Origin: an uncultured Isosphaeraceae bacterium | Lineage (GTDB): Bacteria > Planctomycetota > Planctomycetia > Isosphaerales > Isosphaeraceae | Assembly (NCBI GenBank): GCA_945957605.1 | Contig: CAMFLR010000010.1 | Span: 186,001 to 250,000 of the forward strand | DNA length: 64,000 nucleotides | Direction: 5' to 3' | Part shown: positions 21,382-52,758 of the stretch, in pieces | Position numbering within the stretch: position 1 is the stretch's first letter | Layout: each line of letters begins with the position of its first letter | Made by a program: the position numbers and the translations under genes | Notes under the pieces: generated by a model | Database searches by the model: none | What the model was told of the DNA's origin: nothing | The model's input: the letters and a program-made list of their open reading frames with translations, nothing else

Positions 21382-24300
21382 TTACGACAACAAGAATTCA
21401 AGGTCATCACGGGTCAAGCCCGCAATCACACCCTTATTGTCAGCATTGAGAATCGCATCAGCAAGATCGCGCTTCTTCTGCTGAAGTTCGAGAATCTTCT
21501 GCTCGACCGTATCACGGCAAATCAGGCGGTAGGCGAACACGCGCTGGGTCTGGCCGATACGGTGCGAGCGGTCGATGGCTTGCGCTTCGACGGCGGGATT
21601 CCACCAGGGGTCGAGCAGGTAAACATATCCTGCTGCCGTCAGGTTGAGACCCAAACCGCCGGCCTTGAGGCTGATCAGGAAGACCGGGATGGTCGGGTCG
21701 TTCTGGAACCGCTCGACGCGCTCGGCGCGGTTGCGGGTTCGGCCGTCGAGGTATTCGTACGTCACCCCTTCGGCGTCGAGGCGTTCCTTCACCAGCGAGA
21801 GGAAGCTTGTGAATTGCGAGAAGATCAGCACCTTGTGCCCTTCGGCCACCACTTCGGCAAGCTGCGGCATCAGCATGTCGAGCTTGGCGCTGGCCTCGCT
21901 GGCGCGGGCGGTGTCGATCAGGCCCGGATGGCACGCGGCCTGTCGCAGGCGAAGCAGGGCTTCGAGCACCTCGATCTTCGACTTGTTCAGGTCGGCGCTG
22001 TCCTTGCGGAGCAGGGCCTGGCGGTAGTGAGCACGCAGGTCTTCGTAAAGCTGACGCTGCGGCGGCTCCATGTCGCAGTAGAACGTTTGCTCGGTCTTTT
22101 CGGGAAGATCCTGAACGACCTGCTGCTTCGTGCGTCTCAGAATGAACGGCCGGAGCGAGCGGGCGATCAGGGCACGCGAACCTTCATCGGCGGCCGAAGC
22201 GGTTGATGTGTGCTTCTTGAACACACTGGCGGTGCCGAGCATGCCGGGGTTGAGGAACTCGAAGATCGACCACAATTCGCCAAGGTGGTTTTCGATCGGC
22301 GTACCGGTCATCGCCAGGCGATGCTTGCCCTTGAGCAGGCGTGCGGCCTTGGCGGCCTGGCTATCGGCGTTCTTGATCGCCTGTGCTTCGTCGAGAATCA
22401 CGCAGTCGAAGTTGACGTTGCAGAGGTCGGCAATGTCGGTGCGAAGCGTGCCGTAGGTTGTGATGATCAGGTCGTGATCGTCGAACGTTTCGCGGAGCAC
22501 CTGGCGGCCGGGACCGGTGTAGTCGAGCACTCGCAGGCGCGGGGTGAAGCGCTCGGCTTCTTGCATCCAGTTGAAAACAAGTGAACGCGGGACAACGATG
22601 AGCGAAGGTCCGCGCGACTGCCTTCGGGCGCGCCGGCTTTGTAGCATGGCGAGCACTTGCACGGTCTTACCGAGACCCATGTCGTCGGCGAGGATACCGC
22701 CGAACTCGAACTTCTGGAGATAGTCGAGCCAGCCGAGGCCTTCTTGCTGATAGGGGCGAAGCTCGCCGCGGAAGCCGGCCGGCGCGTCGCGTGGGGTGAG
22801 GCCGTCGAAGCGCGGGAGGGCTTGGCGGATCTTGCCGAACGCCATGTCGACGCGGATATCAGGCTGCGCGGCGAGCAGGGCGTCAAGCAATCCTGCCTGG
22901 GCACGGCCGAAGCGGAGCCCTTCGCCGTCGGTGGTGCCGAGGTCGGCGAGCAGGCCGTACTTCTTGAGCCACTCTTCGGGCAACATGCCCATCGAGCCGT
23001 CACCCAGCTCGACCATCGTGTCGCCACGGCGGGCGGCGGCGAGCAACTCGGGCAAGGGGACGCTCTGACCGCCGAAGTCAACGGCGCCACCGAGCTCGAA
23101 CCAGTCGATGCCGGTCGTCACGTTGAGCTTGAATTCGCTGACGGGGTGAATAATCGCCCCTTCGGCCTCGACTTTCCAGCCGAGCGAGACCAGCTCCTTC
23201 GTCACCGCCGGCATGCGTTTGGCGGGAAGTTCCATCGTACCGGGATCGAGCAGATGGTCCTTCGACTCCTTGAAGCCGAGGTTGAAGAGCAGGAGCATTG
23301 CTTCCTGTTCGGCGGGATTCGTGCGAACGGCCGCAAGGCCCTGTTCGGTGCGAACGGCGTAGCGTCCCGGTGCCTGGATGATCGGCACGCGAACGGCGTC
23401 GTAGTCGAAGCTGATCTCGGCGAGCAGCTTGTCGGTGCCCCAGTTCTGGCGAGGGGTCCGCAAGGTCAGGCTGGGGCGCGGTGGTACGTCGATGACTTTG
23501 AGCTCGAGCGTGTCGATCAGTTCGTTGGGTGGGATCCGGGCGTCGGACAGGATGCGTTCGAGCTTTTCATCCTGCTCGGCGGCGTCGCTGAAGACCATTT
23601 CCTTTTCGTGACGGATGCGCATCATCCAGAGGAAGATGCCGGCGTCGTCGAATGGGGCGACACGTCCATTACCGAGAATGACGAGACCATTGAGCAGAGC
23701 GAGCGGCTCGCCCAGATCCATCTTCTGATCTTCGCCATTCAGCTTGCGCTTGAGGATGCCGCGCCAGGTCCAGCGCTTGCCTGACGGGTCCGACTTCACG
23801 TCGATGCCGAAGCGCCAGGGGGCGCGTTCGTCCCAGCGAATTGCGGGCGGGGCTTCCTCACCACCAGCGCGACGGATCTTCATGCGGCCGGTCTTGGCGA
23901 GGGCTTCGATGATCGCCACTTGCCGGTCGGGCTGGATGATGAATTTTGATGTGCCGGGGAGGTCGCCGCCGTTCGCCGCGGCGGCGGGTGCGGCATTGAC
24001 TGAGGCACCGGTCAGCAGCGTGAGGAGTTCTTCGTCTTCGGGCTCGTAGCGGTGCTGGGCGATGGTGGGCTTGCCGGAGTGCCGCCAGACCTTGAAGTCG
24101 CTCCATTCTCCGTTGGGCTTGCGCAGGCGGCGTGCCAGCTCGATGACCACCTGGTTGGCGGCGATTGTCGCGGGGACGTCGAGGATGTAGGCCAGCATGC
24201 GCTTGGTGTTGCGCGTGAGCTTGCCTTGTTGCACCTGTTGGCGGACGACCCGGCCGTTGCGCAATTGCATCGACCGTGCGCCGGGAGGCAGAGTGCCCGG

Positions 24301-25557
24301 AACGCCAGGACGTCCATCCGGGCCGGGATACTGTCCCTCGCCTTGAGGGACGGGCCGGCCGCGATGTTTTTCTTTGCGGTTGTTGTTATTGCGGCCGCGG
24401 GCGTTCTGATTGTTCGGAAGCTGAGGCGGGGGACCGTAGCCTTGTCCTGAACCGGGGCCGTAATTCGAGCCGGGGCCGTAACCCGTATTCGAGCTGGGAC
24501 CATATCCCGTGTTCGAGCTGGGACCGTATCCTGTGTTCGAGCTGGGACCGTATCCCGAACCGGGTGCTGCGCCATAGCCTGGGCCGGGTGCCGCGCCGTA
24601 GCCCTGGCCGGGACCCGTGGGACCGTAGCCATTCCGGTAGGCGGATGGGTTCTGTGATTGGTGCCGTTGCTGCTGCGGGTAACGATACTCGCGCTGCGGC
24701 TGGCTCGGGGCGTTACCGGGCGCGTCGTCGGGCAGGGGAAGGGCGAGCGGGCCGTTGTTCGGCTCGGGTGCACCTTCGCCACCAGCGGGATACCCTTCCT
24801 GCGGGGGCCTTTGCTTGGGACCAGGGTCGGTGACGAGCTTGAGCGGGCGCATCGGTGCCGAGGCGAACAGGCCACGCGCATCGGCGGCGAGAATCGTGGC
24901 CCAGATGTGCTTGCACGGGTCGCCGAATGGTGCGAAGAACGGGCAACTGCACGTTGCGAGCAATTTCGGTCCACGAAGACGTAAGCGGACGCGGTACTTT
25001 GTGGTCCCCTTCACTCGTGCGACAACTTCACCCGGCGTGGCGGATGTGATGGCCACGCGATTCTTGGCGAAGTACGACTGACCGCGAGAACGAACGCCGT
25101 CGCTGAATTCGCGGGCGATCTTCTGCGCCAGGCCCATCTGCCCTTCGAATGGGGGCCGGCCTTGCCCTTGTTTGCGTTGTTGCTGCTGGGCGCGGTGGCG
25201 ACGATTGCCGTTCTTCCCTTGGCCGGGGCCGCCGTTGTTGTTGTTTGTGTGGCGACGGCCAGTCTGGTCGCGCGGCGGCAGGTGCGCTGGGCCTCGCGCA
25301 TCGTTGGCGTTGCCGTTGATCGTGTTGCCGGCGTTGTCGTAGTCGAATTCGGGGGCGGGACGGGGTTCGGGCGGGGGGCCGTAGTTGTTTGGGCTGGGTG
25401 TGCCGCGAGGAACGCGGGGCGGGCGCGAGCGACGGTTTTCCTCGTATGGCGACGGTTGCCGAGGCTCGCTTTCGCGTTCGCGCTGATATGGCTCGCGCGC
25501 CTCGTCCTGATCGCGGCGGGTCAGTTCCGGCTCGTATTCGTTGCCCCAGCCACCCAT
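21382..25557 (-). CDS. SWI2/SNF2-family helicase with SWIM finger and long disordered N-terminal regions
   Basis: A 1391-residue paralogue of the helicase at 16-19 kb. Residues 1-140 are charged and rich in Pro, Arg, Asn and Gln. A SWIM finger follows with Cys203-x-Cys205 and Cys215-x-His217 (CSCPFFAPFGDPCKHIW). Residues about 240-440 are a second low-complexity region rich in Gly, Tyr, Pro and Asn with near-exact GYGPSSNT repeats. The SF2 core contains ADDMGLGKTVQ, VILDEAQAIKN, MTGTPIENH, LKAGGLGLNLTAAGY and SHRIGQ. ATG 25557 has AAGG 8 bases upstream; the frame extends to a TTG at 25599. Two small genes follow almost without gap. Low-complexity arms of this type can bind nucleic acid or drive clustering, which is inference here. 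Confidence 0.93.
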   Translation of the reverse strand: MGGWGNEYEPELTRRDQDEAREPYQRERESEPRQPSPYEENRRSRPPRVPRGTPSPNNYGPPPEPRPAPEFDYDNAGNTINGNANDARGPAHLPPRDQTGRRHTNNNNGGPGQGKNGNRRHRAQQQQRKQGQGRPPFEGQMGLAQKIAREFSDGVRSRGQSYFAKNRVAITSATPGEVVARVKGTTKYRVRLRLRGPKLLATCSCPFFAPFGDPCKHIWATILAADARGLFASAPMRPLKLVTDPGPKQRPPQEGYPAGGEGAPEPNNGPLALPLPDDAPGNAPSQPQREYRYPQQQRHQSQNPSAYRNGYGPTGPGQGYGAAPGPGYGAAPGSGYGPSSNTGYGPSSNTGYGPSSNTGYGPGSNYGPGSGQGYGPPPQLPNNQNARGRNNNNRKEKHRGRPVPQGEGQYPGPDGRPGVPGTLPPGARSMQLRNGRVVRQQVQQGKLTRNTKRMLAYILDVPATIAANQVVIELARRLRKPNGEWSDFKVWRHSGKPTIAQHRYEPEDEELLTLLTGASVNAAPAAAANGGDLPGTSKFIIQPDRQVAIIEALAKTGRMKIRRAGGEEAPPAIRWDERAPWRFGIDVKSDPSGKRWTWRGILKRKLNGEDQKMDLGEPLALLNGLVILGNGRVAPFDDAGIFLWMMRIRHEKEMVFSDAAEQDEKLERILSDARIPPNELIDTLELKVIDVPPRPSLTLRTPRQNWGTDKLLAEISFDYDAVRVPIIQAPGRYAVRTEQGLAAVRTNPAEQEAMLLLFNLGFKESKDHLLDPGTMELPAKRMPAVTKELVSLGWKVEAEGAIIHPVSEFKLNVTTGIDWFELGGAVDFGGQSVPLPELLAAARRGDTMVELGDGSMGMLPEEWLKKYGLLADLGTTDGEGLRFGRAQAGLLDALLAAQPDIRVDMAFGKIRQALPRFDGLTPRDAPAGFRGELRPYQQEGLGWLDYLQKFEFGGILADDMGLGKTVQVLAMLQSRRARRQSRGPSLIVVPRSLVFNWMQEAERFTPRLRVLDYTGPGRQVLRETFDDHDLIITTYGTLRTDIADLCNVNFDCVILDEAQAIKNADSQAAKAARLLKGKHRLAMTGTPIENHLGELWSIFEFLNPGMLGTASVFKKHTSTASAADEGSRALIARSLRPFILRRTKQQVVQDLPEKTEQTFYCDMEPPQRQLYEDLRAHYRQALLRKDSADLNKSKIEVLEALLRLRQAACHPGLIDTARASEASAKLDMLMPQLAEVVAEGHKVLIFSQFTSFLSLVKERLDAEGVTYEYLDGRTRNRAERVERFQNDPTIPVFLISLKAGGLGLNLTAAGYVYLLDPWWNPAVEAQAIDRSHRIGQTQRVFAYRLICRDTVEQKILELQQKKRDLADAILNADNKGVIAGLTRDDLEFLLS
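24482..24553. repeat. Three 24-bp tandem repeats inside SNF2 gene
   Basis: Three direct copies of a 24-base unit (each beginning CC[CT]GTRTTCGAG) encode three GYGPSSNT units of the disordered region. The surrounding sequence holds further degenerate GYG-coding units. Copies differ by one or two bases. Confidence 0.85.
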
Positions 25558-26108
25558 CCGTTCAACCTTCGGAAAAGCGCTCCGGCAACTCCGTCGCAAG
25601 GGAGGATCGCCGGGCTGGATTCGCGGGCTTCGCGGGAGCTTCCTTTTCGGTCCGATGCTCCGGCGAGCCGACTTGATTCGACTCGAATGTCTCTCAGCTC
25701 AACTCAAACAAACCAAATCTCAAAGGGCGCTTTGACGTAAACACCCAACTGAAGATTCGAGCAATCGCGGGACCCGCCTCGTGCGGGTGGGCCAACAGCG
25801 ATCACCTTGTGGCGAGAGCATCTGGCTCGCACTGATGCGCGGACGATGAGTCCCGCACCCGTTTGGCGTGCGCAACTGTGGAAAGGTTGCGCACCGCGTT
25901 GCCGAGGGTTTCAACGGCCGGCAGGGCCAGATGCTGCACTGACTTCAAATACTCCGAACTCCGACGATCCGGTCTCCCTTGGTGCGGCCGCTCGATGCGC
26001 CGCACACCCTGCGGGAAGCGAGGCGGTGGGACGGCCCCACGCGCCTCTTCATTCAGCCTTGCTTTACGAACTCACTCTTTCGGGACACAGAGACTCAATT
26101 GTTTATGA
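25558..26108. other. Intergenic region between gyrB and SNF2 gene, with strong hairpin
   Basis: No coding frame here looks real. The interval should contain the gyrB 3' end and the promoter of the SNF2 operon. At 25868-25894 there is a perfect hairpin with 9-base arms (GTGCGCAAC and GTTGCGCAC) around a 9-base loop, and at about 25767-25783 a shorter one (ACCCGC/GCGGGT). Neither is followed by a T-run, so they are not typical intrinsic terminators. Confidence 0.6.
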
Positions 26109-29082
<2,974 letters not shown>

Positions 29083-29547
29083 TTAGCGGCGCCCTGGTTT
29101 TGGTGGCTTCGGCGGCGCGGGTGGTGGAGATCCTGGGGGATTCGTGTTGCGGACCGGCCCAATGCGAAAGCGAATATCGTGAATCGCCGTGCCGGCCAGC
29201 GAGCGCCGCAACGAGGCCAGTAGGTCCGGTTTTTGGAAGGATGCCAGTTCCTCGAGCAGTGTCGGGTGCGCGACGATGATGCTCAGGATGCCACGCCGGA
29301 GTCCGTCAACCTGGGTATAGCGATTCGCCAGTTCACCAACGGCGTTGGTCCAGGCGGCTTCGAGTTCGCTCGTCGCCTGGATCCGCGCCAGACCTCGCGC
29401 GGCGAACAGGTCGGCCAGGATATCGGAGAGCGGTTTGGGACCATGCGATCGTTCCGACGCTCCGTGACTTTCCGGCGCGGCCTTCCGGCCTGCGCTCGGG
29501 CGTGTCTTTGGCTGCTCGGAATCGTGGCCGTCCAACCCCTGATTCAA
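29083..29547 (-). CDS. dciA: DUF721/DciA-family protein, probable replicative helicase loader
   Basis: A 154-residue protein with the DUF721 core: LSDILADLFAARGLAR, the ELEAAWTNAVGELANRYTQVDGLRRGILSI stretch, and the HPTLLEELA...LLASLRR helix. DciA is the widespread bacterial loader of the DnaB helicase in lineages lacking DnaC/DnaI. Its place between dnaN and gyrB fits that role. The C-terminus is a Pro/Lys-rich tail (PPAPPKPPKPGRR) that is probably flexible. The start is uncertain because no in-frame ATG exists. I chose TTG 29547 with GAGAGG 10 bases upstream; TTGs at 29607 and 29535 are alternatives. It is 98 bases downstream of dnaN and probably in the same transcript. Confidence 0.8.
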   Translation of the reverse strand: MNQGLDGHDSEQPKTRPSAGRKAAPESHGASERSHGPKPLSDILADLFAARGLARIQATSELEAAWTNAVGELANRYTQVDGLRRGILSIIVAHPTLLEELASFQKPDLLASLRRSLAGTAIHDIRFRIGPVRNTNPPGSPPPAPPKPPKPGRR

Positions 29548-29609
29548 GTACGAATGTCCTCTCAATTGTAACGGCCCAGGGCCCTGGAAGCAACGCCATT
29601 CGGCCAAAT

Positions 29610-29645: not shown

Positions 29646-30764
29646 TTACCGATCGCGGGTGAGAGGCATCACGACGTAGCTGTAGCCGTCTTCCGTCTTG
29701 AACACCGCGGCATTCCGGCCGTCGATCAGCTCGGCGTGAATGACCGACCCGTCGTCCAGGGTCTTGAGTGCGTCGGTGAGGTAACGGGGGTCGAAGGTGA
29801 TCTCGACCGTCTTCCCTTCGTAGCTGATCGCTAGCTCGATCTGTGAGCTTCCCACATCGGCGGCCTGGCTCGCAAGCGTCAGTGCCTCGGGCGAGAAGTT
29901 GAAGTCGACGCCTCGGCTCTCGTCGCTTGTGACGATCGAAGCCTGTTCTACTGCCAGACGCAGCGGCCCAACTTCCAGCGGGATCTTTACGTCCGTCTTC
30001 GCTGGGAAGACGTCCTGATACCGCGGAAAGCGTCCTTCGACGAGCCGGCTGTAGATCACCGCGTTGTGCGTACGCACCAGAACCGATGTCGTGCTCTGGA
30101 TCGCCAGGTGTACCGGCGGATCGTCGTCCGCGACGTTACGTTCGATCAATTTGAGAGCTTTCACCGGGATGACCGGCATCCCCTGCGGCGGCTCTGCGCC
30201 ATTTTCCGCCTCTGCGCCAGCGGACATTTTCGCCAGGCGTCGCCCATCCGTTCCCACCATCGAGATCCGGTCGTCCGAAAGCTCGACGAGCACACCACCA
30301 AGCGCGTAACGTGTGCTCTCAACGTCGGTTGCGAACATCGTTCGGCGAATCAACCGCCTGAGATCGGCTGCGCCCACGACGTGATAGCTACTCGCGGCGA
30401 AGTCGGGAACTTCGGGGAAGAGGTCGGGGTCTTCGGCGGGAAGACGGAACTGCGACCGTGCGCCTCGGACGTGCAAAACGTCGTTCACCACCTCGATTTC
30501 GAGCTCTTCATCGGAGCTGGTCGCGAGGATTTGCTGCACCTTGGCGGTCGGCAAGATCACTGCGCCCGGCTGTTCGACTTTGACTCCGAGCACCCGGTAG
30601 CGGATTCCGACTTCGAGGTCGGTCGCCATCAGGGTCGAGCCGTCATCGGGATCGGCGACGAGTTTGAGATTCTGGAGGATTGGCTTCGGGCTGCGCGACG
30701 GAGCAACGCCAGACACCATGCCAAATGCCGCCAGCAATCCCTTGCGGTTGCACAACGCCTTCAT
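29646..30764 (-). CDS. dnaN: DNA polymerase III sliding clamp (beta subunit)
   Basis: A 372-residue beta clamp with the three-domain family layout. Recognisable segments are ILQNLKLVADPDDGSTLMATDLEVGI in domain I, FPEVPDF and RTMFATDVESTRYALGGVLVEL in domain II, and the C-terminal AVFKTEDGYSYVVMPLTR, ending close to the usual MPMRL-type terminus. The clamp tethers polymerases and repair factors to DNA. ATG 30764 has GAGG 8 bases upstream. It begins a minus-strand run of dnaN, dciA and gyrB. The region upstream contains inverted DnaA-box-like repeats, consistent with an origin-proximal position. dnaA and recF are not adjacent here. Confidence 0.96.
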   Translation of the reverse strand: MKALCNRKGLLAAFGMVSGVAPSRSPKPILQNLKLVADPDDGSTLMATDLEVGIRYRVLGVKVEQPGAVILPTAKVQQILATSSDEELEIEVVNDVLHVRGARSQFRLPAEDPDLFPEVPDFAASSYHVVGAADLRRLIRRTMFATDVESTRYALGGVLVELSDDRISMVGTDGRRLAKMSAGAEAENGAEPPQGMPVIPVKALKLIERNVADDDPPVHLAIQSTTSVLVRTHNAVIYSRLVEGRFPRYQDVFPAKTDVKIPLEVGPLRLAVEQASIVTSDESRGVDFNFSPEALTLASQAADVGSSQIELAISYEGKTVEITFDPRYLTDALKTLDDGSVIHAELIDGRNAAVFKTEDGYSYVVMPLTRDR

Positions 30765-30964
30765 GCCGATGACCTCGCTTCATGCCGAACGCCCCGCTCG
30801 CCATCGTGAGAACGAGGGCGGGGCTGTGGTCTCATTAAGAGATAAAGGGAGAGAGGTAACTCGTCGTCTCATTCGAAGACGCGAGATCCCACCGCGGATA
30901 AACGAAAGACTCCTCCCGGGAAGGCCATGCTACCTAATGACTTAGCCAACCACAACACCCCCTT

Positions 30965-31125
30965 GTTCACTAGGGGAAAACCTGTCGATAAACCGGTCAA
31001 AAGCGCCGGCATGAGCCGTGACGTTCCGGTGCGCCCCGAGCAGCCATCACCAAATTCATGCCGGATCGACCCGGCCCACCAAGGCGCCGGTAACACGGTT
31101 ATCAACAGGTTTTCCCTGGGTGAAC
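30965..31125. other. Candidate chromosomal origin (oriC) element: inverted repeat with DnaA-box-like sites
   Basis: Two arms of about 30 bases lie in inverted orientation at 30965-30996 and 31096-31125. Read on opposite strands, both give GTTCAC, then GGGAAAACCTGT, then [C/T]GATAA and CCG, with about four differences. Each arm holds a 9-mer one mismatch from the consensus DnaA box TTATCCACA: TTATCGACA on the minus strand at 30983-30991 and TTATCAACA on the plus strand at 31099-31107. A GTGAACGTTCAC palindrome follows at 31120-31131. The position beside dnaN, at the point where long minus-strand gene runs give way to plus-strand genes, supports an origin. An operator for divergent transcription is the main alternative. 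Confidence 0.55.
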
Positions 31126-31257
31126 GTTCACAATTGAAGGCGTTAAACAGATGACGTTAGTTGTTTTGGGATCGCAGTTTATGAAAAATGGCCGGCTGCA
31201 GCTCTCGCGCAATCGTTGGATCGCGTTTTTGGAGCTATTTCATCGCTGATTTCCGCA

Positions 31258-31276
31258 CGATCTTATATTAAGATCG
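31258..31276. promoter_or_regulatory. Perfect 19-bp palindrome upstream of ECF sigma gene
   Basis: CGATCTTA and TAAGATCG form perfect 8-base arms around TAT, about 80 bases upstream of the chosen sigma-factor start, in a locally AT-rich stretch. It could be an operator, part of the promoter, or an origin unwinding element. No T-run follows, so it is unlikely to be a terminator. Confidence 0.5.
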
Positions 31277-31357
31277 CTAGAAATTAGGAGAGCGTTTGAA
31301 CCGAATGCAAGGTTGCCGCGACCTTGGAATTGCTGCCCGTTGTTCACGACCCAGGTT

Positions 31358-31930
31358 ATGCGAGCGCGAGCGTTGTCATCCGATCTCCGAGAGCTGCGGG
31401 ATGAGTGGCTGGTGCTGCGTTGCCGGCTGGGCGATCGCGCGGCATTTGAGGAGCTGATGGGGGAGTGGGAGCCGCGGCTCCTCTACTACCTAAGGCGGCT
31501 CGTGCCCCAAGAAGCCGACGCCTGGGACGCCCTCCAGCGCACCTGGCTCGCCGTCTATCGCGACTTGCGGCGATTGAAAGATCCCAAGGCGCTTCGGACC
31601 TGGCTCTACCGAGTCGCCCGCAACCAAGCCGCCACGCATTGCCGCCGCCAGTTTCGTCACGAAGCGCGGCGAGACGATGGAGCCGATCTCGCAAACATCG
31701 CCGGCCCGGACTGGTCGCCCGCGCTCGAAGACGCCGAACGCGTCCACAAAGCGCTGGCGGCGCTCAGCCTGCCGCACCGTGAGGTGATCACCCTGCAGTT
31801 TCTCGAGCAAATGACGATCGACGAGATCGCCGCCATCACCAAAACGCCCCCGGGAACGATCAAATCGCGACTTCACTACGCAAAGCTGGCGCTGAAAGGG
31901 CTTCTCGAAGCGGGGGAGAATCAACCATGA
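31358..31930 (+). CDS. ECF-type RNA polymerase sigma factor
   Basis: A 190-residue sigma-70-family protein with only regions 2 and 4. Region 2 includes AAFEELMGEWEPRLLYYLRRLV, DAWDALQRTWLAVYRDLRRL and the -10-recognition segment FRTWLYRVARNQA-like (seen as LRTWLYRVARNQAATHCRR). Region 4 has LSLPHREVITLQFLEQMTIDEIAAITKTPPGTIKSRLH. ECF sigma factors direct stress or envelope responses and are usually held by an anti-sigma factor. I use ATG 31358; the frame is open to a TTG at 31313. The stop overlaps the ATG of the next gene by four bases (ATGA), so the two products are translationally coupled and are probably partners. Confidence 0.9.
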   Translation: MRARALSSDLRELRDEWLVLRCRLGDRAAFEELMGEWEPRLLYYLRRLVPQEADAWDALQRTWLAVYRDLRRLKDPKALRTWLYRVARNQAATHCRRQFRHEARRDDGADLANIAGPDWSPALEDAERVHKALAALSLPHREVITLQFLEQMTIDEIAAITKTPPGTIKSRLHYAKLALKGLLEAGENQP

Positions 31931-46276: not shown

Positions 46277-49200
46277 ATGACCACAGCGACTCTGAATCCC
46301 ACCGCCCCACGCGAGATTCGCCGTGCCCTCGGCCGAATCGCCGCGCGGTTGCAGTTCGTCAAGACGCTCAAAGGGATTGGCAGCGTTGCGGTGGTCGCAG
46401 CTCTTGGGGTGATTCTGGGCATGCTCGCTGACTTCGCCTGGCCGCTGCCTTCCATCGCGCGCTGGGGAATCTGGAGTGTGTGGGTCGTCGCGTGCGTGGT
46501 GACTTTTCTTGTCGCTGTTGTTCGTCCGCTAACGCGTTCGGTCGGCGGGCTCGAACTCGCGGCGCTTGCCGAACGAGCCCAGCCCGAGCTGGAAGAACAA
46601 ATCGTTAGCTCCGTCGCATTATTATCTGAAGGTGAAAGAACCCACGGCTCGCGTGCCTTGATTGATGCCCTCACAGCGCAGGCCGTGAACACGGCCAACC
46701 TCATCGACGCCCGCAAGGCAATTTCCGCGGATAAAGCCTGGCAGCGTTTGGCCGTGGGCAGTTTGCTTGCGCTGTTGGTTGCTGGCCCGGCGCTCATCCA
46801 GCCCGATCCCTTCGGCACGCTGGCCCGTCGGTTTCTTGCCCCCTGGGCCGAGCTCGACCGCGTGGGACGCTTTTCCCTCCGCATAAATCCTGGTGACAAA
46901 ACCGTCGCGCTCGGCGCCGATTTGCCGATCAACGCCTGGCTCTCACCTCGCGCAGGATTATCCTTCGGCGCCCTTCCACCCGACACCGCCTGGCTCGAGT
47001 GGGACGACGAAAGCGGTAAGACCACCCGCGTAAGAATGGCGACGAAAGATGCCGGATCGACAGACTCTCGCCAGTTCGAAGCCAAGCTCCCCCGGCTCGC
47101 GAAGTCGGTGCGCTATCGTGTCGTGACCGATCCGGTATCGAGTCGCTACTACCAGATCAACGCCGTCGAGCCGCCGAAGATCGAGTCGATCGTCGCGACC
47201 GTCACACCACCTTCTTACACAAAGCTACCCGCCGCGCCAGCAAAAGATGCCGCGCGGCTGAGCGTCATTGAAGGCAGCACGATCGACTTCAAGATCACGA
47301 CAAACCGCGCAGTGAAATCGCTGGTGCTGGGCTGGCCGACGTTCAATGAGTCGGCGTCTGATTCCCTGAAATCAGCGGAAATTACTCCGAGTGGCGACGG
47401 CAAAACGGGCACGCTGCAAGTTACTGCCGAAATCGCGGGTAATTATACGTTCACGACCGAACTGAAGCAGGACGAACATGGACTCGACGGCCTGCTCGAA
47501 AAACGCAAACTGCTTGTGCGGGCCGATGCTCCTCCTGTTCTGTCCGTCGTGCAAATTGAGGCCAAAGAAATTGGTGCCGAAGATGTGCTCACGATTCCCA
47601 TAGTAGCACGCGATGATTTTGATGTGAGCACAGCCGAGTTGCATTATTCACTCAAACGCGCGAACAGCGATGCCGAACCCGAGACCGGAAAAATCGCAGC
47701 GCCGCTCCGTGGATTGGGAACGATTCGCGCTCAGGGTGATGCGACGCTAGGGCTCAAGCCGCTCTCGCTCAATCCGGGCGATCAGCTTAGTTATCGCGTG
47801 AAAATCGCCGATAATCGCCCTGCGCCGCGAGGGCCGAATATCGTCTGGTCGGACGAAGGTTCGCTCGCCATTGTTGCGAAGGCCGAGCCAATCCTGGCGC
47901 GGCAAGACCGGTTGCATCGCGAGCGAATTCAGGAGCGACTCGAAGAGATCAAAAAGCAAAATACGTTCAATCGTCAGGAGACGATCCAGCTTCGCTACGC
48001 GGCCGATGCCGCACAACGCACAGCCGCAAGCTGGGACAAGTCGAAAGACGCCGCTCTCGCCGAACGCAAGGCGACGGCTCGCAAGGTGGTCGAGGATCTC
48101 AACGCCCTGGCGCGCGACCTCGATGCCGATCCCACGTACAAATCACTCGCTCGCCCCGCGAAGGAAATTGCCGAAGTCGAGGCCGAGGCAAGCCACGACG
48201 CAATCGAAGCCGCAGGCAAGGCGACCGACGCACCCAAACGTCTCGCCGAGCTGAAAGGGGCCGACAATCGGCTCTCGGCCACGCATCAGCGCATTGAAGA
48301 GCTTCAGCGCAAGTTCGAAGCGCTCGCCAAGGCCGACGCCGATCGCCAGAAGCTTCGTGAACTGGCTGCTCGTGAAGAAGCTTTAGCTGCTGAAGCCGCG
48401 CAGGCGGGTGACGATCAAGCCAAGCTCGAAGCCGTGCGTAACGAGCAAGATGAGGTGCGCAAGGAACTTGATGCGCTGGCCAATCAAGCTCCCGAACTGA
48501 AAGCGGGCTTGCTCGAAGCCCAGGCGAAGCAAGCGGCCGAACTCGCGAAGAAAGCACGCGAGTTGGCCGAAAAGCAGCGAGAAGAAGCTCGCAAAACCGG
48601 TGAAGGGACCAAGCGCAAAGAAGCGCTTCAGGAATTGGCTGAGGCGCAGCGACGTCTCGAAATGGATGCCAGGCGGCTCGCACTCGATATCGATCAGCCG
48701 CTCAATGAAAACGGTCGCGCTGGGTTGAATCCGCAGACTTTGCAAAACGCCGTGCCACCCATCGAACGCGGCGAAATTGCGCAGGGGCGTCAGCGGCTTG
48801 AAGAGGCTGAGAATGAATTGCGTCGATTGGCGCGCGACGTGGAAGATGCCCCCGCCGATCCCAAATCATTTGTGCGCCGCTTGATTCAGCGGCAGGAAGA
48901 ATTGTCGCGCCATGTCGGTGAGGCTGTGCGCGAGGCGCGAGGCAAGAACAGCCTCAAGCCCGAGGAACAAAACGAGCTTGTTGAAGCACTCAAACCGCTG
49001 GTTGCCGAGCAGGAAGCGATTCATAAGCTGACCGAAGCGCTCAAGGTTGATGAACCGCGCAAAGGGGCTGTGCGCGATGCCGAGCAAGCTGTGGCTCGGG
49101 CGCTTGAGAATCTGAAAGCCGCGCGGCCGAAGGAAGCGGAGGGACGTCAGAACGAGGCGAAGCAAGCGCTTCAACGATTGGTGCAGGCGCTTCCTGATCC

Positions 49201-51682
49201 CTGGCAGCGCGAGGAGCCGATCCGCAAGAAGCTTGAAGATGCTCGTAGACTGGCTGACGAGTCGATGCGCGATGTCGACCGCCATCTCCGCGAAACTGCT
49301 CCGCAGCCCGGGAAGCCGCACGATGAGGCCAAGGCCGCCGCCGAACTGGCGAACCGGCTCGCACCGCTGGCTCAGAAAGCAAATGAAGCCGCAACGGCAC
49401 TCGCGGCGATGGATGTTCCTGAACGAATGCAGGCGCACGTTGAACGCGCCGAACGTCGCGCCAAGGCACTCGCCGAGGAGATGAAGGCCGTCAAAACGCA
49501 GGCCGATGCACTGGCCAAACTCCCCCCGCGCAAGACCGACGCATTTCGCACGTGGCAAGTCGCCGCGCCGTTCCCCATGGCACAACGCCCGCCATTCTCG
49601 CTCAACGAACCAATCAAACCATCGGCAAAGTTCAAGGGTTTGAAAGGGAAGCCGGTCGAATTCAAGTCGGCCAAAGCGGTCGACGATCAGGGAAAGCTCG
49701 ACCTTGGATCGATCTATAGCAAAGACAGCGATCAATCGGCGTTTGCCTACACCGAGTTGGATAGCCCGGTCGCGGGTACCGCGAAGTTTTCGGTCGGTGC
49801 CGACGATACGCTGATGATCTGGGTAAACGGCAAGCAGGTCTACAAGCTCGATGGCAACCATTCCTACAGCCCCGGCGCTGAGACGTTTGACGTGCTGTTG
49901 CCTAAGGGGATGAGCCGAGTCGTTGTGCGTTGCGGCAATAGCTCGTCGGAATGGATGTTCGGCATGACGGTCGCGTTGCCGCAAGAACATAGTCCGGAGC
50001 TTGCACGTGTTCAAACGTTGCGAGCCGCCTTGCCGCAAGCGGTTGCAGAATCTCGCGCGGCGATGGAGCGCTTGACGCAAAAAGTTCATCATCAAACACC
50101 GTCCGATGAGATCGCGCAGGAGCTTGCGGCCGAGCAGGCGCAGCAGGCGGAAAAGGTCGCGAAACCAGCGGATGCAAAGGCCGATCCCGATCAGGCTCGC
50201 GAAGCCCTCGCCGAACAAAAACGGCTGGCGACGGCCCTGCGATCGCTCAATGTTTCCGATGCGGCGGTGCTTCAAAGCGAGGCTGTGCGACTCGCAGATC
50301 AGGCGGTGAAGAAGCTCGGTGATCCGCAGGCGAAGCCTGAAGAGAAAGTAGCAGCGGCGAATGAAGCGAAAGCCGCAGCGAAGAATCTGGCCGATCGCCT
50401 CACCGACGCGATCACACCGAAAGAAGAAGCCGCCGCACTCACGCGGGCCGAGCGGGCGATGAACGCGGACGACACGCCTGCCGATATCGCAGCGCAGTCG
50501 CGAGATCAGCAGGCAATCGCCGCCGAGGTTGCACGACTTGAAGCCGATACAAAACCTGCCGATCCGGCAAAGGCGGATTCTGGTGCGGTCGAGGCATTAA
50601 CTCGCGCTGCGGAAATCGCTGAACGCGCAACACAACCGGCGAACGATCCCGGCAAACCGAAGCCGACAGCGCGTGACGTCGCCAAGGCGCGCGAGCAAGC
50701 GGCGGCGCGTTTGGGCGAGCTCACCGCACGTCTCTCGGAAAAGCCGATGCTCACACCCGCACCGGCCAAACCTCGCGCCTTGCCCGATGCACCGAAAGAC
50801 CCGGCCGTGGCACCGCTAGCGGCCCGCGCCGCGGAGGTAAAAGCCCTGGCCCAACGTGAGCGGCAGATTCGCGAGAAGTTGCAAGCCGTTCTCGGCGAGC
50901 GGGTGGCACCTCAGGAAGATTTGCACGAAGCGGCCGCTGCGCTTGGGGCAGAGCTAGCCGACCTGCGCGATGAAAGTCGGCAGGTTGGTCCGCACGGTCA
51001 CGGTCATGCAAACGCCGCGGCCGATCTTTTGACGAACCAGGCGCCGCGAGCGATGGAGCAGGGGATTGACCAGCTCGCGCAAGGGCAGCCCGAGCAGGCC
51101 CGCGATAGTCAACGCCGCGCGGCCGATCTCGTCGAGCGAGCCGCTCAAGCTGCCGAGGATCTGGCGCAAGCCTTGAAGCTCGATATCCCCAACGAGGCCG
51201 GGCAGGCCGCCGATCTCCAGCCCGCGCGTGACGCCCTCGCCGAAGCTCGGCAGCAACTCGCGCAGGAAGGAAAGGGGCCAGCCGCCGCACAGGCCGCGAA
51301 TGCCAATGCGCCTCAACAAGGTGCGGCCCACGCATCAACGGGACAGAACGCGTCCCAGTCAATGCAGCGTGCGGCGCAGGCGATGCGCACCGCTGCTCGC
51401 TCGGCCCAGGGCCGCGACTCAAACGGCGAGCCGATGGCGGCGAACGAAGGACAAACACTCGACCCGAAGGATAACGGAGCAGGGGTGGTTGCCGCCGATT
51501 TGACCGAGCTGCAAGCAATGATTCGCCAGAAAACCGGCAAGAGCTGGGGCGACCTGCCCGGCCACCTGCGTACCGAAATCTTGCAGCTTTCCCAAGGGAA
51601 ATATCGCGACGACTACACGCGGCTGATCCAGCTCTACTTCAAAGAAATCGCCTCCGACGCCGCCAAACCCGCAAAGCCATGA
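46277..51682 (+). CDS. Giant DUF4175-like membrane protein with coiled coils and an inserted beta domain
   Basis: An 1801-residue protein, the largest in the window. Two transmembrane helices lie within residues about 30-80, and a third hydrophobic helix is near 155-175, as in DUF4175-like proteins. An Ig-like, beta-rich region spans about 190-530. From about 540 the protein is Ala/Glu/Lys-rich coiled coil. At about residues 1095-1235 a compact beta domain interrupts it (FRTWQVAAPFPM, TLMIWVNGKQVYKLDGNH, VVVRCGNSSSEWMFG), resembling a galactose-binding or PA14-like jelly roll. The rest is again helical. ATG 46277 has GAGG about 11 bases upstream; the longer frame to 46187 is unsupported. It is coupled by an ATGA overlap to the next gene. 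Probable envelope scaffold; function unknown. Confidence 0.82.
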   Translation: MTTATLNPTAPREIRRALGRIAARLQFVKTLKGIGSVAVVAALGVILGMLADFAWPLPSIARWGIWSVWVVACVVTFLVAVVRPLTRSVGGLELAALAERAQPELEEQIVSSVALLSEGERTHGSRALIDALTAQAVNTANLIDARKAISADKAWQRLAVGSLLALLVAGPALIQPDPFGTLARRFLAPWAELDRVGRFSLRINPGDKTVALGADLPINAWLSPRAGLSFGALPPDTAWLEWDDESGKTTRVRMATKDAGSTDSRQFEAKLPRLAKSVRYRVVTDPVSSRYYQINAVEPPKIESIVATVTPPSYTKLPAAPAKDAARLSVIEGSTIDFKITTNRAVKSLVLGWPTFNESASDSLKSAEITPSGDGKTGTLQVTAEIAGNYTFTTELKQDEHGLDGLLEKRKLLVRADAPPVLSVVQIEAKEIGAEDVLTIPIVARDDFDVSTAELHYSLKRANSDAEPETGKIAAPLRGLGTIRAQGDATLGLKPLSLNPGDQLSYRVKIADNRPAPRGPNIVWSDEGSLAIVAKAEPILARQDRLHRERIQERLEEIKKQNTFNRQETIQLRYAADAAQRTAASWDKSKDAALAERKATARKVVEDLNALARDLDADPTYKSLARPAKEIAEVEAEASHDAIEAAGKATDAPKRLAELKGADNRLSATHQRIEELQRKFEALAKADADRQKLRELAAREEALAAEAAQAGDDQAKLEAVRNEQDEVRKELDALANQAPELKAGLLEAQAKQAAELAKKARELAEKQREEARKTGEGTKRKEALQELAEAQRRLEMDARRLALDIDQPLNENGRAGLNPQTLQNAVPPIERGEIAQGRQRLEEAENELRRLARDVEDAPADPKSFVRRLIQRQEELSRHVGEAVREARGKNSLKPEEQNELVEALKPLVAEQEAIHKLTEALKVDEPRKGAVRDAEQAVARALENLKAARPKEAEGRQNEAKQALQRLVQALPDPWQREEPIRKKLEDARRLADESMRDVDRHLRETAPQPGKPHDEAKAAAELANRLAPLAQKANEAATALAAMDVPERMQAHVERAERRAKALAEEMKAVKTQADALAKLPPRKTDAFRTWQVAAPFPMAQRPPFSLNEPIKPSAKFKGLKGKPVEFKSAKAVDDQGKLDLGSIYSKDSDQSAFAYTELDSPVAGTAKFSVGADDTLMIWVNGKQVYKLDGNHSYSPGAETFDVLLPKGMSRVVVRCGNSSSEWMFGMTVALPQEHSPELARVQTLRAALPQAVAESRAAMERLTQKVHHQTPSDEIAQELAAEQAQQAEKVAKPADAKADPDQAREALAEQKRLATALRSLNVSDAAVLQSEAVRLADQAVKKLGDPQAKPEEKVAAANEAKAAAKNLADRLTDAITPKEEAAALTRAERAMNADDTPADIAAQSRDQQAIAAEVARLEADTKPADPAKADSGAVEALTRAAEIAERATQPANDPGKPKPTARDVAKAREQAAARLGELTARLSEKPMLTPAPAKPRALPDAPKDPAVAPLAARAAEVKALAQRERQIREKLQAVLGERVAPQEDLHEAAAALGAELADLRDESRQVGPHGHGHANAAADLLTNQAPRAMEQGIDQLAQGQPEQARDSQRRAADLVERAAQAAEDLAQALKLDIPNEAGQAADLQPARDALAEARQQLAQEGKGPAAAQAANANAPQQGAAHASTGQNASQSMQRAAQAMRTAARSAQGRDSNGEPMAANEGQTLDPKDNGAGVVAADLTELQAMIRQKTGKSWGDLPGHLRTEILQLSQGKYRDDYTRLIQLYFKEIASDAAKPAKP

Positions 51683-52758
51683 TTCTGTCTATGAAGCATT
51701 ACATTCTTATATTTCTGATTCCTTGCGCAATCCTTGCGCTTGTGATTCCTCTGACTGCGCATGGCCAGGATGTGGGAATCAAGCCAAGCACAGCGACCAA
51801 ATCGGCCGCGGCCGATCGCGCGATTCAGAAGGCGCTCGCTTACCTCAAATCGACCCAAAAGCCGGACGGTGGCTGGGATAGCGGGTTCGGCCGCGCCACG
51901 TCGGTCACCTCACTTTCCGTGATGGCGTTCCTCGCTGCCGGTCACGTTCCCGGCGAGCCGGGGCCGTATCGTGAAACGGTTGAGCGAGGGATCAAGTATG
52001 TGATCACAAATCAAAAACCGAATGGGATGCTCACATCGAACACGAGCCACGGGCCGATGTATTGCCATGGCATTAGCACGCTCATGCTGGCCGAGGTTGT
52101 TGGAATGTCGAGCGATCCCACGCTGGCCGAGCAATCGCGTGTGGCTTTGTCGAAGGCAATCGACCTGATCGTCAAGGCGCAGGATTTATCGAAGAGTCCG
52201 TCGCAGGCGGGAGGTTGGCGTTATCAACCGACGAGTCGCGATAGCGATCTGAGCGTGAGCGGCTGGCAGGTGATGGCACTTCGCGCGGCGAAATCGGCGG
52301 GGTGCGTGGTGCCTTCGGGACAGATTGACCGGGCGCTCGAGTACGTCAAAAAGTGCGCGGTGCGCGATGGTGGTGGATTCGGTTATCAACCAGGCGGCGG
52401 GCCAAATAATCCCCGAACGGGGACGGGAATTCTCTCCTTGGAAATTTGTGGCGAGCATGGTTCGACCGAAGCCCTCGCCGGTGCAGAGTATTTGCTCAAA
52501 CACCCGCCGCGGTGGTCGAGCGAGTATTTCTTTTATGAGGCGTACTATTGCTCGCAGGCGACGTTTCAGGTCGGTGACAAGTATTTTTTGAACTACTATC
52601 CCAAGCTCGTGGCGATTTTGCTCGACCATCAAGATCCGGATGGAAGCTGGCTTTCGGGCGACGGTCACGATCGATCGGGCGGGCGAGATTATTGTACGGC
52701 GATGGCGGTTCTTAGCCTTGCGGTTGAATATCGGTATTTGCCGATTTATCAGCGATAA
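51679..52758 (+). CDS. Exported alpha-toroid (prenyltransferase/squalene-cyclase-like) repeat protein
   Basis: A 359-residue protein with an N-terminal signal sequence (KHYILIFLIPCAILALVIPL...AHGQ) and helical repeats of the terpenoid-cyclase/prenyltransferase toroid type, seen as recurring KPDGGW, AGGWRYQ, GGGFGYQPGGG and DPDGSW segments like QW motifs. The cyclase DxDD acid motif is absent, so it is probably not an active squalene cyclase; planctomycete genomes hold many such exported proteins of unknown role. Its ATG overlaps the stop codon of the DUF4175-like gene (ATGA), so the two are translationally coupled. An internal ATG at 51691 is an alternative start. Confidence 0.83.
   Translation: MILSMKHYILIFLIPCAILALVIPLTAHGQDVGIKPSTATKSAAADRAIQKALAYLKSTQKPDGGWDSGFGRATSVTSLSVMAFLAAGHVPGEPGPYRETVERGIKYVITNQKPNGMLTSNTSHGPMYCHGISTLMLAEVVGMSSDPTLAEQSRVALSKAIDLIVKAQDLSKSPSQAGGWRYQPTSRDSDLSVSGWQVMALRAAKSAGCVVPSGQIDRALEYVKKCAVRDGGGFGYQPGGGPNNPRTGTGILSLEICGEHGSTEALAGAEYLLKHPPRWSSEYFFYEAYYCSQATFQVGDKYFLNYYPKLVAILLDHQDPDGSWLSGDGHDRSGGRDYCTAMAVLSLAVEYRYLPIYQR

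Follow-up and report, generated by a model that had tools for sequence, protein, structure and literature searches.

Does the inverted repeat upstream of dnaN in this uncultured Isosphaeraceae bacterium mark the replication origin of its chromosome, and if so, why is dnaA not beside it? The window analysed here is a stretch of 64,000 nucleotides (C10:186001-250000) from a genome of 33 contigs and 8.84 Mb. The Pfam assignments agree with the gene arrangement read in an earlier note from the sequence alone: dnaN (sliding clamp, 29646-30764), dciA (helicase operator, 29083-29607) and gyrB (26109-28709, with a start that may lie further downstream) are encoded on the minus strand, and an ECF sigma factor gene (31313-31930) is transcribed divergently on the plus strand. 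The site thus adjoins a group of replication genes, dnaN-dciA-gyrB, as is expected of an oriC. The same note reported dnaA as absent, which holds for the window but not for the genome, where contig C5 encodes a 509-aa DnaA and the contig of the window carries a DnaA-like gene of 362 aa.

The two arms of the repeat, 30965-30991 (minus strand, the R arm in the orientation of dnaN; GTTCACTAGGGGAAAACCTGTCGATAA) and 31099-31125 (plus strand, the F arm; GTTCACCCAGGGAAAACCTGTTGATAA as reverse complement), match at 23 of 27 positions on opposite strands, whereas the best 27-nt pairing reached 20 when the 548-bp intergenic region was shuffled 500 times under a first-order Markov model. The repeat is therefore real and lies where it had been noticed, its arms being 27 nt in length rather than the proposed 30 or so; a longer pairing of 65 nt is weaker (71%). 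Each arm carries GGGAAAACCTGT and, as first noted, a 9-mer with one mismatch to TTATCCACA, namely TTATCGACA at 30983-30991 (minus) and TTATCAACA at 31099-31107 (plus). A search of all 8.84 Mb for the core GGGAAAACCTGTYGATAA returned the two arms only, plus one site with 2 mismatches, so the repeat is not one that recurs at many unrelated loci.

Each arm is composed of two tandem DnaA-box-like sites. In the left arm the inner box is TTATCGACA, kept in 17 other Isosphaeraceae loci, and the outer box, 11 bp from it, is TTTTCCCCT (30972-30980, minus), at which the aligned site in other families is TTTTCCACA. In the right arm the inner box TTATCAACA is followed by the outer box TTTTCCCTG (31110-31118, plus). 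A third, degenerate box, TTATCCGCG (30893-30901, minus), is located 90 bp downstream of the left-arm box; its counterpart in relatives is TTATCCACA/G-like and lies 88-91 bp towards dnaN. The alignment of 18 Isosphaeraceae loci showed an arm of two 9-mers in 11-bp phase, inner TTATCNACA and outer TTTTCCCC, with a weaker third 9-mer 11 bp inward of the inner box in each arm. The arms point outward, away from each other, and the inner boxes are spaced, start to start, mostly by 114-115 bp in Isosphaeraceae and by 116 bp in the present genome, where two boxes are good and the remaining ones weak. With a matrix trained on the relatives, the two arms scored 33.3 and 31.5 bits, and no other site in the 407 kb scanned exceeded 19.2. 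The region thus holds the intergenic cluster of DnaA boxes that is expected of a DnaA-dependent oriC, and no denser cluster was found among 100 listed TTATCNACA sites of the 126 in this genome. Only one other pair within 500 bp exists among these listed sites, two copies of TTATCAACA on the same strand and 297 bp apart (G000:C1:488099-488404).

The DNA around the boxes contains further candidate elements. A promoter-like sequence leading into dnaN, TTGTGG-N17-TAGCAT (30927-30955, minus), is predicted between the second and third boxes; comparison of relatives gave the family consensus TTGTGC-N17-TATCAT, and it is by this comparison only that the site becomes visible, a generic promoter scan having returned no match because the site falls below its threshold. 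AT-rich DNA is present on both sides of the boxes, yet no single unwinding element is unambiguously conserved among relatives. Of the three 50-bp windows with the lowest stability between 26 and 37 kb, two fall in the stretch outside the right arm (31142-31286), which is a possible unwinding element in this genome, the same place in relatives not being AT-rich. The stretch beyond the third box (30830-30879), AT-rich in relatives too, is an alternative candidate. In many relatives the third box is followed by a GA run of 3-bp periodicity (AGAYGANGA-like) and an AT-rich patch, which match positions 30830-30879; this run is possibly an unwinding motif or a 5'-UTR structure, and judged by eye it does not clearly consist of the TAG repeats of a DnaA-trio.

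The divergent pair of boxes upstream of dnaN, at a near-fixed spacing, recurs across the Isosphaeraceae. The core pattern was detected in 26 of 45 genomes of the family, in many of them as an inverted pair beside dnaN. Within the 800 bp upstream of dnaN in 28 Isosphaeraceae loci, the exact sequence TTWTNCACA occurs 11 times, as against 7 times in all the flanking DNA, and boxes within one mismatch number 56 against 8.9 expected from the flanks. The relatives of this dnaN include those of named Isosphaeraceae such as Singulisphaera acidiphila and Isosphaeraceae bacterium KatS3mg108. Four entries titled Candidatus Kuenenia or Paceibacterota (L251-L253, L257) carry an Isosphaeraceae- or Planctomycetia-like dnaN, and their titles look wrong.

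Outside the family, a divergent TTTTCCMCA pair spaced by 132-137 bp was found in 32 of 48 loci from other Planctomycetia, the other 6-bp spacing bins in the same loci holding 2.0 on average and 8 at most; the outer site there is the standard DnaA box TTTTCCACA. Since dnaA lies directly upstream of dnaN in 44 of the 46 such loci with enough upstream sequence, the pair falls in the dnaA-dnaN gap, which is the classical position of oriC. An origin on the dnaN side, considered unusual in the earlier note, would therefore occupy the class-ancestral place, the one that dnaA left. None of the Isosphaeraceae loci has dnaA directly upstream of dnaN; the gene comes closest in L254, 5.4 kb upstream, and in L256, 4.4 kb downstream. 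By this comparison of gene orders, the putative origin stayed at its ancestral place and it was dnaA that departed. The pattern has exceptions. No recognisable pair was found upstream of dnaN in Tautonia-type genomes (L043, L120-L122, L250) and in some other Isosphaeraceae genera; the Tautonia-type origin may be elsewhere, having moved from dnaN. In five of the six Paludisphaera-type genomes of genus g15 that lack the short DnaA described below (L035, L114-L118), the arms are about 214 bp apart instead of the usual 115 bp or so, and in the chromosome G048 both spacings are present.

A minimum of strand skew is a usual sign of oriC, not an obligatory one. In KatS3mg108, assembled as one contig of 4.82 Mb, the GC skew stays near -0.45 across roughly 55 kb to one side of dnaN and switches to about +0.45 on the other, where it persists for at least 80 kb. 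The cumulative minimum, at 275,462, lies 3.2 kb from the element (about 278,650-278,790), with dnaN starting at 279,123; several further strong sign changes occur along this chromosome, for example -0.35 at 3.37 Mb. The local skew in KatS3mg108 is extreme, at 4-fold sites about -0.82 within about 55-80 kb of dnaN (G013:C1; L190, L209-L219), and the values of about +/-0.45 drop to 0.15-0.2 further out. In the chromosome G020 the sign changes at 3.03-3.13 Mb, with dnaN at 3.095 Mb, and a second, equally deep minimum is found at about 4.54 Mb; in G048 the sampled raw skew has a weak minimum of small amplitude around dnaN. A skew minimum at the element is thus clear in KatS3mg108 and weak in G020 and G048. 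The skew within +/-10 kb of dnaN in relatives has mostly the expected direction, and little weight was given to it because it is confounded by gene orientation.

The minimum suggested at about 31 kb is absent from the contig under study (C10, 287 kb), in raw skew as well as at 4-fold sites. The cumulative GC skew climbs across the site, and the skew at 4-fold sites suggests a leading plus strand to either side of it, so the skew support for this genome comes from its relatives. The side of dnaN on which the short dnaA gene is found varies among relatives, indicating that rearrangement near the origin is common, and such rearrangement may explain the contrary skew of this contig. Strong AT skew was observed over a few kb at window positions 47000-52000 (about +0.24) and 22000-26000 (about -0.2), the GC skew being also raised at 22-26 kb.

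Which protein would read the boxes? The long DnaA of this genome (509 aa, contig C5) combines domains I, III and IV with the NHST motif, and by these features the genome encodes a DnaA predicted to be able to read them. It is present in nearly every Isosphaeraceae genome checked, with GGRNHSTV in the box-contact helix of those inspected. The short DnaA (362 aa; C10:147318-148403, L002/L309), encoded 68.6 kb from dnaN, also has counterparts in most Isosphaeraceae genomes checked; the gene adjoins a gyrA-like gene in the present genome. In other families the dnaN-adjacent dnaA is the short one and retains DHTT or NHST, while the His-Thr pair is lost in all 29 readable Isosphaeraceae short DnaAs, mostly as GGRDPAT (L310-L338). 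In E. coli DnaA, the box-contact helix makes its base contacts through residues 432-435 (PMC5043019). The short DnaA was judged the less likely reader of the dnaN origin because its box-contact residues are lost; the long DnaA is the likelier initiator.

Taken together, the box enrichment, the fixed geometry, the conservation, the ancestral gene order, in which the element lies between dnaA and dnaN, and the reversal of skew at dnaN in KatS3mg108 strengthen the original proposal of a replication origin, and the region upstream of dnaN (about 30830-31290) is very probably the chromosomal oriC of this bacterium. Against this reading weigh the skew of contig C10, the second minimum in G020, the other sign changes in KatS3mg108 and the 3.2-kb distance of its minimum from the element, the small number of good boxes, the absence of an unambiguously conserved unwinding element and the genera in which no pair was recognised. 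The strongest alternative, to which we give a rather small chance, is that the origin lies elsewhere in the genome and that the element, though bound by DnaA, serves to control the dnaN-dciA-gyrB promoter or to titrate DnaA. The promoter-like sequence between the boxes, the contig without a skew minimum and the genera without the pair are in agreement with such a site. However, an operator needs neither two-way symmetry nor an arm far upstream of the promoter, the skew of KatS3mg108 flips at dnaN, the pair in other families sits in the classical dnaA-dnaN origin gap, and no other box cluster appeared among the 100 listed sites of 126. Binding of the arms by a dimeric regulator other than DnaA, with dnaN or the divergently transcribed ECF gene as its target, is very improbable. 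Conservation of the TTTTCCCC half-arm does exceed that of a typical weak DnaA box, but the aligned half in other families is the standard box TTTTCCACA, variation in the inner boxes runs towards TTATCCACA, the tandem sites are phased at 11 bp, and the element keeps company with dnaN in families having other neighbours. A chance repeat, a transcription terminator or a mobile-element end, for which the 6-pair stem that a terminator scanner placed over the left arm could speak, is refuted by the class-wide conservation at fixed spacing, with no further copies in the genome, arms more than 100 bp apart and no Rfam family detected in the window, and is the least credible reading of all.

For the origin at dnaN, we infer DnaA binding, unwinding, helicase loading and promoter control as follows. 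The long DnaA, encoded elsewhere, would bind the two inner boxes and extend along the outer boxes in 11-bp phase, giving rise to two oppositely directed assemblies about 11 helical turns apart, which the third box near dnaN would assist. The flanking AT-rich DNA would then open, and the helicase would be loaded, probably via DciA, the product of the gene after dnaN. With the putative dnaN promoter situated among the boxes, transcription of dnaN-dciA-gyrB is probably governed by this assembly as well, which suggests that initiation is coupled to dnaN transcription. A broader scheme is put forward tentatively, and we consider it rather doubtful as a whole: throughout the Planctomycetia a two-armed origin of fixed geometry would carry two mirror-image DnaA assemblies, and in Isosphaeraceae the short DnaA, ancestrally linked to the origin, would have lost box recognition once freed from it and then become a regulator or, as happened in Paludisphaera, disappeared, so that initiation fell to the long DnaA.

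The element is of a known kind, distinguished by a geometry shared across the class and by the departure of dnaA. The closest likeness is the dnaA-dnaN intergenic region of other Planctomycetia (Pirellulales, Gemmatales), which likewise has, at a near-fixed spacing ahead of dnaN, a divergent arrangement of DnaA boxes; there dnaA is the immediate upstream neighbour and the outer box reads TTTTCCACA, whereas here dnaA is gone and the outer box is TTTTCCCC. The oriC of E. coli is located by mnmG, not beside dnaA, and holds many more sites, together with those of IHF and Fis; the present element has fewer boxes and lies at dnaN. It resembles E. coli oriC in its two oppositely oriented arrays of DnaA sites, which in E. 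coli include weak sites 2 bp apart, according to the passage of PMC6070618 that cites Rozgaja 2011. In Synechococcus elongatus, oriC is reported near dnaN, and cyanobacterial dnaA and dnaN are separate (PMC7198777); the lineage is unrelated, and the likeness noted here is in gene position. Our search of the open-access literature found no description of a planctomycete origin. A class-wide origin core defined by sequence would be a direct target for work on planctomycete replication and the cell cycle, and could also be used for origin-based plasmids. It would also provide a case in which the origin remained fixed in place while the gene of its initiator relocated and another copy of DnaA diverged.
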